This document shows positions 57,957 to 61,157 of a DNA stretch of 64,000 nt, one piece after another (the first letter of the stretch is position 1; every line of letters begins with the position of its first letter). The stretch spans positions 1 to 64,000 of the forward strand of contig DATMBC010000070.1 in NCBI GenBank assembly GCA_035559435.1, given 5' to 3'. The notes under the pieces are model-generated. The model saw only the letters and a list, made by a program, of their open reading frames with translations. It made no database searches and was not told the DNA's origin. The DNA is from a bacterium. Its GTDB lineage: Bacteria; Zixibacteria; MSB-5A5; WJJR01. Made by a program: the position numbers and the translations under genes.

Positions 57957-58146
57957 GATCGCCTCCTAACAAATTGCTCTCACTATCATTGAAGAGCATT
58001 AGTTGCATGCCATCGGCCGCTGCGGCTCGAAAGTGAGCGTTCACAACCGGACTTTAGTCAATATGGGTTCCTTCGCCTCGATGTCAACCTCAGTGAAGAG
58101 AGCGGCAAAACGGAATCGGTCTGCCACGTGAGATGTTCAGCATCCG

Positions 58147-58781
58147 CCCGGGTGCCCCACAGCTTTGTCCGCCTCTGGCGGACTTGCTGTGGGTGACTCA
58201 CACTGACTACTTTAAATCGTGACCCGTTTGCGCCACTATGACGACTTGGGCACAGCCCGCTTCGTCACCTTCAGTTGTTTCATGAGGCGTCCCTATCTTC
58301 TCAAAGAGCGAGCAATGCCCATCCTCGCCGCGGAGATCGACCGTGCGCGGATGACACTCCGTTTCCGGCTCCTGGCTTTTGTCTTTATGCCGGAGCACGT
58401 GCATCTCGTTCTCTGGCCTCCGGAAGGCATGAAACTGGGACTGGTAATCGGCGGGATCAAGGCGCGATCGGCGCGGCGGTTCTTTGCGGGAACCGGGATT
58501 GGACCACGCGGAGGGACTCGTGTGTTCTGACAGAGGCGATGCCACGACCACAACTGCCGTATTCCCGAGACGACGCGTGAAAAGATCAACTACTGTCACA
58601 ACAACCCGGTCCGTCGTGAGCTGGTCGCTGATCCGGGACAGTGGAGATGGTCCAGTTATAATGCGTATCGGGGGGCGACAGACGTCCCGTTGACAGTGGC
58701 CCCGATGCCGCTTTGATTGCGCGGATGAGAGTTACCCACAGCAAGTCCGCCAGAGGCGGACAAAGCTGTGGGGCACCCGGC
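58147..58781 (+). mobile_element. RAYT/REP element copy 1 (635 bp, inactive gene)
   Basis: Bounded by 47-bp perfect inverted repeats at 58148-58194 and 58734-58780. Each repeat is itself a REP hairpin: CCCCACAGC ... GTCCGCCTCTGGCGGAC ... GCTGTGGGG-like. No target-site duplication is visible. It lies at the exact break point of a truncated tyrosine recombinase. Same length and order as copy 2 at 59467, with roughly two dozen differences seen by eye. Confidence 0.9.
58219..58716 (+). pseudogene. REP-associated tyrosine transposase (TnpA_REP), nonsense-disrupted
   Basis: The same 166-codon frame as the intact copy at 59539, but the Trp codon after TRVF is TGA (58528-58530), truncating the protein to 103 residues before the catalytic Tyr. 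The HUH motif PEHVHLVLWP is retained upstream of the stop, and the remainder past it (YCHNNPVRREL) is otherwise intact. The nonsense is a single G-to-A change relative to copy 2. Confidence 0.9.
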
Positions 58782-59443: not shown

Positions 59444-59466
59444 GAGAGCACCCCTACGATTTGTTG

Positions 59467-60101
59467 CCCGGGTGCCCCACAGCTTTGTCCGCCTCTGGCG
59501 GACTTGCTGTGGGTGACTCACACTGACTACATTAAATTGTGACCCGTTTGCGCCATTATGACGACTTGGGCACAGCCCGCTTCGTCACCTTCAGTTGTTT
59601 CATGAGGCGTCCCTATCTTCTCAAAGATCGAGCAATGCCCATCCTCGCCGACGAGATCGACCGTGCAGGGATGATTTTCAGGTACCGGCTCCTGGCTTAT
59701 GTCTTTATGCCTGAGCACGTGCATCTCGTTCTCTGGCCTCTGGAAGGCATGCAGCTGGGACTGGTAATCGGCGGGATCAAGGCGCGATCGGCGCGGCGGT
59801 TCTTTGCGGGAACCGGGATTGGACCGCGCGGAGGGACTCGTGTGTTCTGGCAGAGGCGATGCCACGACCACAACTGCCGTACTCCCGAGACGACGCGTGA
59901 AAAGATCAACTACTGTCACAACAACCCGGTCCGTCGTGAGCTGGTCGCTGATCCGGGACAGTGGAGATGGTCGAGTTATAATGCGTATCGGGGGGCGACA
60001 GACGTCCCGTTGACAGTGGACCCAATTCCACTCTGATTGCGCGAATGAGACTTACCCACAGCAAGTCCGCCAGAGGCGGACAAAGCTGTGGGGCACCCGG
60101 C
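59467..60101 (+). mobile_element. RAYT/REP element copy 2 (635 bp, intact gene)
   Basis: 47-bp perfect inverted repeats at 59468-59514 and 60054-60100, identical to those of copy 1, flank one transposase gene. The repeats fold individually as REP hairpins. Exactly 1320 bp separate corresponding points of the two copies. No target duplication is visible, as expected for HUH single-strand transposition. Confidence 0.9.
59539..60036 (+). CDS. REP-associated tyrosine transposase (TnpA_REP, RAYT)
   Basis: 165 residues from GTG 59539. Y1-transposase family with HUH motif PEHVHLVLWPLEG and catalytic Tyr region REKINYCHNNPVRRELV. The C-terminal DPGQWRWSSYNAYRG is typical of the REP-associated branch. 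RAYTs cut and join single-stranded REP hairpins. The gene is cradled between two inverted REPs and is intact, unlike the neighbouring copy. Confidence 0.92.
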   Translation: MTRLRHYDDLGTARFVTFSCFMRRPYLLKDRAMPILADEIDRAGMIFRYRLLAYVFMPEHVHLVLWPLEGMQLGLVIGGIKARSARRFFAGTGIGPRGGTRVFWQRRCHDHNCRTPETTREKINYCHNNPVRRELVADPGQWRWSSYNAYRGATDVPLTVDPIPL

Positions 60102-60134
60102 GGGTCCGCAGTGACGGGGGACGCGGCGCAGCCG

Positions 60135-60156
60135 CAATCCCACTTGACAAACCGGA
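60135..60156 (+). promoter_or_regulatory. TTGACA-containing module, first copy
   Basis: A 22-bp string containing CCCACTTGACAAACCGG (60135-60156) is repeated exactly at 60885-60906. Here the -35 hexamer is TTGACA (60144-60149), but no good -10 sits at standard spacing. It lies ~50 bp upstream of the redoxin start. Confidence 0.45.
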
Positions 60157-60206
60157 GTCCGTTACTCTGCTTTATCCCACCGCGGCAATGGATGACGGAG
60201 CGCGAT

Positions 60207-60752
60207 ATGAGCGGAGTGGGACAACCGGCGCCGAAACTGGAATTGGCCACGGATGATGGCCAGCATGTCTCGCTTTCGGACATGCGTGGCAGGCCCGTCC
60301 TGGTCTCGTTCCTGAGCCATGCGGCGTGACCATTCTGCCGGACTCACCTGGTCCAGGTGATTGAACGCAAAGCGGAAATCGACAGTCTCGGGGCGGCGGT
60401 GGTGCTGGTGGCCTACGACCGGCCCAGTCTGCTTCAGGCCAAGATGTTGCACCACCTGACCCTCCCCTATCCCCTGCTTTTGGACGCGGAGAAGAAGGCG
60501 TATGCGGCCTGGGGGCTGGGGCGGACCGGTCTGGGGGGAGCGATGTTGTCGCCTTCGCTGAATTGGCGCTACCTCAAGCTGCTTTTGCGCGGCGAGCGAT
60601 TCCTCGGTTTGGCGCCGGATATGTTTCAACTCGGCGGCGACTTTGTTGTCGACCGGCAAGGGTACCTCCGGTTCGCTCACCGAATGCGCAACAACGGCGA
60701 CCGTGCCGATGTGGCGATACTCATGGATCAACTGCGCGATGCAGGCAAGTGA
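60207..60752 (+). CDS. Probable selenocysteine-containing redoxin (AhpC/TSA-like), in-frame UGA read as Sec
   Basis: An ATG at 60207 (CGGAG upstream) opens a 181-residue frame with one internal UGA at codon 41 (60327-60329). Before it: a redoxin start, GQPAPKLELATDDGQHVSLSD then RGRPVLVSFLSHAA. After it, in the same frame: PFCRTHLVQVIERKAEIDS then LGAAVVLVAYD and a normal redoxin end (FVVDRQGYLRFAHRM). The UGA therefore sits exactly where a thioredoxin-fold CxxC would begin, giving U-P-F-C (Sec41, Cys44). A SECIS-like hairpin lies just downstream. A nonsense pseudogene is the alternative, but the hairpin and placement argue for Sec. No sel genes are in the window. Confidence 0.8.
60344..60360 (+). 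promoter_or_regulatory. Bacterial SECIS-like hairpin
   Basis: TCACCTG (60344-60350), loop GTC and CAGGTGA (60354-60360) form a perfect 7-bp stem with a G-initial 3-nt loop. 21 nt separate the UGA from the loop. Bacterial SECIS elements lie within the coding region about 16-37 nt after the UGA with a small apical loop beginning G or GU, so the fit is good. Confidence 0.75.
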
Positions 60753-60893
60753 AACACAACGCATCGCGCACCATGATCGGATGGCCGATGGACAATGGGG
60801 CCAGAACGCTGCGAAGTTGCGGGCCATCGGGATTGGCCGCATTGGCGATAGCGCCGCGTTCCCCTCGCGCCGCTGGCGCTGCCCCAATCCCAC

Positions 60894-60921
60894 TTGACAA
60901 ACCGGACCGTTTTGCTATCTT
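60894..60921 (+). promoter_or_regulatory. Candidate sigma70 promoter of the carbonic anhydrase leader
   Basis: TTGACA (60894-60899), a 16-bp spacer and TATCTT (60916-60921). The -35 half lies in the 22-bp module that also precedes the redoxin gene. Confidence 0.6.
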
Positions 60922-60929
60922 TTGCCCAG

Positions 60930-61127
60930 TGCGCGCAAGCGCACGGTCGTCGCATGTCACCCGCCGTCTACCATCGTCGAGTCTCCGTCTTCGGATCCGC
61001 CGGTTGTTGTTGTTGTCCGGTGCGCGGTTGTTCCGTGCGGAGGAGTGATGGTGTGTCCCGGCTGACCTGACGCACCCCGGCAACGTCAATTCCCGACGGG
61101 CCCTTCCGCATGGAAGGGCCCGTTTTA
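60930..61127 (+). ncRNA. Candidate leader RNA or small RNA ending in an intrinsic terminator
   Basis: Between the promoter at 60894 and the carbonic anhydrase gene lie about 200 nt with no ORF of note. A 5' hairpin (GTGCGCGCAAGCGCAC near 60929) and a strong terminator hairpin at 61096-61123 followed by TTTTACGTTT are present. The layout suggests either an attenuated leader or a stand-alone sRNA. I could not match it to SRP, 6S, tmRNA, tRNA-Sec or a known riboswitch. Confidence 0.35.
61096..61127 (+). terminator. Rho-independent terminator upstream of the carbonic anhydrase gene
   Basis: A 12-bp perfect stem, ACGGGCCCTTCC / GGAAGGGCCCGT, with loop GCAT and tail TTTACGTTT, 30 bp before the carbonic anhydrase start and on its own strand. 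Confidence 0.8.
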
Positions 61128-61157
61128 CGTTTCACCCATACTCCCCACGGAGGAGTC

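Follow-up and report, generated by a model that had tools for sequence, protein, structure and literature searches.

Peroxiredoxin-like (Prx-like) selenoproteins with a U-x-x-C site have been described from the Sargasso Sea (PMC1088965), 'Prx-like 1' is among the common selenoprotein families in the GOS set (PMC2398784), and a 2026 review lists PF00578 U-x-x-C/U-x-x-U and PF08534 U-x-x-C families (PMC13188914). For the hairpin that directs selenocysteine (Sec) insertion in bacteria, the published bSECIS model gives a loop of 3-9 nt, a stem of 4-16 bp, a spacing of 16-37 nt and an MFE <= -7.5 kcal/mol, with a G in the first two loop positions and then G/U (PMC13188914); the spacing is given in PMC10778597 too. 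Here we describe a redoxin gene that resembles these families, located in a window of 64,000 nucleotides, by which we mean the whole stretch of DNA that was analysed. The features of the redoxin locus are as follows.

60125..60156, plus strand: 32-nt upstream element with TTGACA, possible promoter -35 region (94% identical to 60875-60906)
60197..60200, plus strand: Shine-Dalgarno-like GGAG, 6 nt before the ATG (read from the sequence)
60207..60752, plus strand: predicted selenoprotein gene, Prx-like/redoxin, 181 residues, with Sec at position 41 by UGA readthrough (frame, Pfam, NCBIfam, AlphaFold2)
60327..60329, plus strand: in-frame UGA, codon 41, first position of U-P-F-C (TGA in the close ortholog, L027; Cys or TGA in distant homologs)
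60336..60338, plus strand: TGC encoding Cys44, the predicted active-site partner of Sec41 (invariant in a 12-sequence alignment)
60344..60360, plus strand: candidate bSECIS hairpin, 7-bp stem TCACCTG/CAGGTGA, loop GTC (geometry, folding, counterpart in L027)

The initial annotation had reported a single redoxin frame that is open on both sides of one UGA, at codon 41, and this is what the sequence contains: the frame begins with the ATG at 60207-60209, stays open for 140 codons beyond the UGA and ends with the TGA at 60750-60752, and its active-site motif reads H-A-A-U-P-F-C. It had also expected gene callers to split the gene, which is indeed how the standard ORF list gives it, as 60045..60329 and 60357..60752. 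In a promoter scan, the full sigma-70 consensus was not matched at 60125-60156 upstream of the redoxin. The TTGACA-containing 32-nt element occurs in two places (60125-60156 and 60875-60906), preceding the redoxin gene and a beta-carbonic anhydrase gene, respectively, which hints that the two genes are regulated together or that a promoter was duplicated. For the carbonic anhydrase gene, a sigma-70-like promoter lies at 60894-60921, followed at 61095-61124 by a strong hairpin resembling a terminator, located before the gene start or overlapping it; the upstream region 60894-61155, for which no Rfam match was found, is a possible attenuator leader. On the other side, directly upstream of the redoxin, there are two similar REP/RAYT-like cassettes (58146-58780 and 59466-60100) carrying IS200-like (Y1_Tnp) transposase genes, one truncated (58219-58530) and one intact (59539-60036). 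Each cassette is bounded by 55-nt inverted repeats, with about 105 bp between the end of the last repeat and the start of the redoxin.

For comparison with known protein families, the redoxin was scored against Pfam and NCBIfam with Cys substituted for Sec41. It matched AhpC-TSA (3.6e-21), Redoxin (4.6e-15) and AhpC-TSA_2 (9.2e-13) in Pfam, and its 75.8 bits for PF00578 (AhpC-TSA), versus a gathering score of 26, together with U-P-F-C mark it as a protein of the U-x-x-C Prx-like type. It has the same Pfam domains as the Prx-like U-x-x-C proteins listed as 'Prx-like 1' (thiol:disulfide oxidoreductase, PF00578) and 'Redoxin family protein' (PF08534). As in the described Prx-like U-x-x-C selenoproteins, Sec would be the first residue of U-x-x-C, the candidate bSECIS lies directly downstream, and there are many Cys homologs (PMC1088965, PMC2398784, PMC13188914). 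We regard it as sound to place the redoxin among the already known U-x-x-C Prx-like selenoproteins, with a mechanism that is not new; a description of the S-H-A-A-U-P-F-C clade was not found in the literature. The best NCBIfam match, over the full length, was NF040769 SelL_rel_redox, with 118.5 bits (E 2.4e-34) against a cut-off of 120, and the ortholog L027 scored 111.6 bits for this family. In the members of NF040769 that were aligned, the site is Cys or TGA, but they are 25-31% identical to the redoxin, and because its score lies below the 120-bit cut-off, by 1.5 bits, we did not file it under NF040769 and consider it a close outlier. SelL and SELENOU/PRXL2 have a U-x-x-C/U-x-x-U site. The redoxin is like SelL and the SELENOU/PRXL2 proteins of aquatic eukaryotes in its Prx-like fold, its AhpC-TSA_2 match and its fold match to PGFS (9usa), whereas it differs from them in being bacterial, in having a candidate in-frame bSECIS instead of a eukaryotic SECIS in the 3' UTR, and in its low identity to them. 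With Bcp/PrxQ and Sec-peroxiredoxin (T-x-x-C/T-x-x-U) it has the fold in common; unlike Bcp/PrxQ, however, it carries U-P-F-C in place of T-x-x-C/T-x-x-U, with Sec41 at the position of their Thr and Cys44 at that of their Cys.

The AlphaFold2 model of the protein (pLDDT 88, pTM 0.86) has a thioredoxin/peroxiredoxin fold, in which residue 41 stands immediately before helix 1 (residues 42-53). The N-terminus of that helix is the usual location of the reactive residue. The top Foldseek match was Sulfolobus Bcp4 (3hjp), and the nearest solved structures were Bcp/AhpC-type peroxiredoxins, ResA/DsbE-like thiol-disulfide oxidoreductases and the human prostamide/PGF synthase (9usa). If UGA60327 is decoded as Sec by SelB with Sec-tRNA(Sec), via the hairpin at 60344-60360, the product would be a peroxiredoxin-like thiol/selenol oxidoreductase of 181 residues. 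As to its catalytic cycle and substrate, we infer that Sec41, the putative nucleophile at the N-terminus of helix 1, would most likely attack a peroxide or a disulfide, that Cys44 would then resolve Sec41 to give a selenenylsulfide, and that this would be reduced by thioredoxin or a low-molecular thiol. Since Sec41 is aligned with Thr and Cys44 with the peroxidatic Cys, the protein could act as a peroxidase as well as a thiol:disulfide oxidoreductase.

U-P-F-C had been interpreted in the initial annotation as a C-x-x-C site with UGA in place of its first Cys, with the suggestion that residue 41 be compared across homologs. This comparison bore the interpretation out, since the alignments contain Cys or TGA at the site. 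Columns 41 (Sec/Cys) and 44 (Cys) do not vary across the 12 aligned sequences; nine homologs (L028-L031, L137-L140 and L148) have Cys at position 41, and TGA is found there in the ortholog (L027/L136) and in a distant, SelL-related sequence (L150). In L141, L152, L033, L039 and L025, too, a TGA is found either at this position or beside it. These genes and L150 are redoxin-like, come from relatives and from the phylum of the ortholog, and show motifs such as W-U-P-Y-C and F-L-R-H-F-G-U-M-F-C, among others. SelL-related members occur in both Cys and TGA forms.

A search of genome contigs with the protein gave a single close ortholog, L027, which is 65% identical and belongs to an SZUA-440 MAG (G133, labelled Gemmatimonadetes). 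L027 has a TGA at exactly the same codon as the redoxin of the window, inside the motif S-H-A-A-U-P-F-C-R, and although synonymous change between the two genes is heavy, the protein sequence is conserved before and after the UGA. Outside the hairpin stretch the same codon was kept at 28 of 100 conserved residues, and downstream of the UGA 62% of third positions differ, compared with 27% of first and 17% of second positions; because dS between the two genes is saturated, a dN/dS ratio is not quoted. Change that falls mostly on third positions while the protein is conserved is the mark of a sequence that is translated and under selection beyond the UGA, which argues strongly against a chance mutation or a sequencing error, and given the TGA and the conserved frame in L027, the UGA together with its frame is beyond chance. 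A nonsense mutation, a pseudogene or a sequencing or assembly error, the true or ancestral codon being TGC or TGT (Cys), could be suspected because Cys is common at the site in nearer homologs and a change of one base gives TGA. We consider such an origin extremely unlikely, since, besides the selection on the sequence after the TGA, the same codon is TGA, followed by the same hairpin, in an independent MAG whose protein is 65% identical, so that this alternative is in the main refuted by L027. In SZUA-440 the redoxin gene is directly upstream of katG (catalase/peroxidase, 1248 bits; L027 813-2984), a position that would favour a role in peroxide defence. The redoxin was absent from both same-genus genomes of the window's organism (G002 and G003), searches of its own phylum (133 genomes) and of the ortholog's phylum (395 genomes) brought up no further close ortholog, and the only homologs in a plasmid collection, at 33%, were from Thermus, with no match at the DNA level. 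Among the genomes searched, the S-H-A-A-U-P-F-C form was found in two only. The gene is thus sporadic and sparsely distributed, and it may reasonably be guessed to have moved horizontally between lineages that decode Sec.

Downstream of the UGA, the arms TCACCTG (60344-60350) and CAGGTGA (60354-60360) enclose the loop GTC (60351-60353), forming a perfect 7-bp stem that starts 14 nt after the UGA, with its GUC loop 21 nt away, exactly as the initial annotation had claimed. Its further claim, that the hairpin lies inside the known bacterial SECIS range, also holds, as the loop GUC, the 7-bp stem, the distance of 21 nt and the energy of -9.1 kcal/mol fall within all four published constraints. 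The same applies to the hairpin of L027 (TCACCT/AGGTGA, 6 bp, loop GGTCG, that is GGUCG in the RNA, 20 nt from its TGA, -9.4). A Watson-Crick stem of such length with SECIS geometry arose in 0.3% of synonymous recodings of the window redoxin (p = 0.003), and a comparable stem with SECIS geometry is present at 1.2% of coding positions in the genes of the window. The 6-bp version in L027 was not significant alone (p = 0.12, synonymous recoding), and the folding-energy z-scores of the hairpin, about -1, are not exceptional. When a longer stretch of the window sequence was folded, a competing hairpin was slightly more stable, and the pair probability of the SECIS stem was 0.63-0.67, compared with 0.98-1.0 in L027. 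Codons in the hairpin stretch were unchanged at 6 of 10 residues versus 28 of 100 elsewhere, which is the expected direction, with small numbers, and another stretch, around codons 120-140, shows a codon conservation similar to that of the hairpin stretch. The hairpin alone is only moderately beyond chance, and the evidence that it provides is moderate.

An open frame alone cannot show which residue is inserted, and the sel genes missing from the assembly, as described below, would also be compatible with the UGA being read as another amino acid by codon reassignment or by a suppressor. This is exceedingly improbable, however, as TGA ends 17 of the 37 long non-overlapping frames in the window, the UGA is found precisely at the Cys position of a redox motif together with a SECIS-like hairpin, and the catalytic site of selD has a UGA too. 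A codon-usage scan for further UGA genes in the window found none, with thresholds that missed the known redoxin gene too.

We then consider the machinery by which the UGA would be decoded as Sec. The genome of the window (G000) is 3.0 Mb in 106 contigs and is rated 100% complete. The initial annotation had proposed to search it for the sel genes and had counted an absence of selB and selC as evidence against the Sec reading. The search gave a mixed result, the negative part of which speaks against the Sec reading: selD was found, with a TGA inside its own frame at the GG-U-AGKVGP site, but selA, a selB above the family cut-off and a tRNA-Sec (selC) were not found in the G000 assembly. The selB candidates were all below the family cut-off, one of them resembling IF-2 when read through, and were rejected, as were the eight best tRNA-Sec candidates, which proved to be tRNAs for Leu, Ser, Cys, Arg and Gly. 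Of the 133 genomes in the phylum, 117 have a selA that scores above cut-off. Four relatives, of which two belong to the same genus (G002 and G003) and two to the same family, have selC, selA and selB next to one another, with tRNA-Sec scores of 66-71 bits. The gene order in G003 is lon, tldD, M1 peptidase, M28 peptidase, corA, bshC, bshA, selC, selA, selB, amidohydrolase, nfeD, glnA, where the names other than those of the sel genes were recognised by eye from the sequence. On the minus strand of contig C8 of G000, lon, tldD and the M1 peptidase gene stand in the order of G003, and the contig ends 531 bp past the M1 peptidase gene, just at the point at which the missing genes would be expected; bshC, bshA, selC, selA, selB and the amidohydrolase are jointly missing from the assembly. 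Because the place that the cluster has in relatives falls off the end of C8, an assembly gap is likelier than a real absence. The likeliest explanation for the missing selC-selA-selB, judged from this gene order, would be an assembly gap, and the cell would make tRNA-Sec, SelA and SelB from genes that probably lie in it.

The nfeD and glnA genes of G000 are inside contig C65, with different genes upstream, so that a rearrangement has also occurred in this genome. A recent deletion might have removed selC-selA-selB together with bshC, bshA and the amidohydrolase, leaving the redoxin as a relic whose UGA is a stop codon ending a 40-residue fragment; the rearranged position of nfeD, which is near the cluster in relatives and here sits beside other genes, and the lack of selA, selB and selC in an assembly rated 100% complete would fit such an event. 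We hold it to be very unlikely, as both UGA genes that were found, the redoxin and selD, have frames that stay intact beyond the UGA, the surroundings of nfeD showed no remnants of sel or bsh genes, and the lon-tldD-M1 peptidase block runs off C8 where the missing genes would follow. It is improbable that the genome is truly without selA, selB and selC, whether by a loss of the Sec trait that preceded the decay of its genes or with Sec decoded by unrecognised machinery. In this family (L085, L086, L087, L088 and L089), selC-selA-selB lie within apparent bacillithiol synthesis genes, bshC and bshA, and in two genomes an LmbE-like gene is at the cluster too, all recognised by eye; this setting amid bacillithiol-like genes suggests a linked thiol and selenium biology.

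Returning to the reading of the UGA as Sec, the genome of the ortholog, G133, has selA (522 bits), selB (310 bits over almost the full length) and a selD with TGA, on three separate contigs (L132, L133 and L135), and these genes are independent support for it. A tRNA-Sec was not detected in the SZUA-440 MAG, perhaps because a contig is missing or because its tRNA-Sec is unusual; a 54-bit match there was rejected as a tRNA-Leu. In summary, we conclude with high confidence that the redoxin is a selenoprotein in which UGA60327 is read as Sec via SelB and the hairpin at 60344-60360. The computed support comprises the open frame, the UGA conserved in the TGA ortholog, the Sec/Cys exchange at the site, a hairpin compatible with the bSECIS constraints, the predicted fold, and selA, selB and selD in G133, and the Sec reading put forward in the initial annotation is supported by them.

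These results also show that a MAG rated 100% complete can miss a whole selC-selA-selB cluster yet keep selenoprotein genes, so that failure to find the Sec machinery in a MAG says little against the presence of selenoproteins. The redoxin adds a clear, conserved selenoprotein, which standard annotation would split, to a phylum in which most genomes carry selA.
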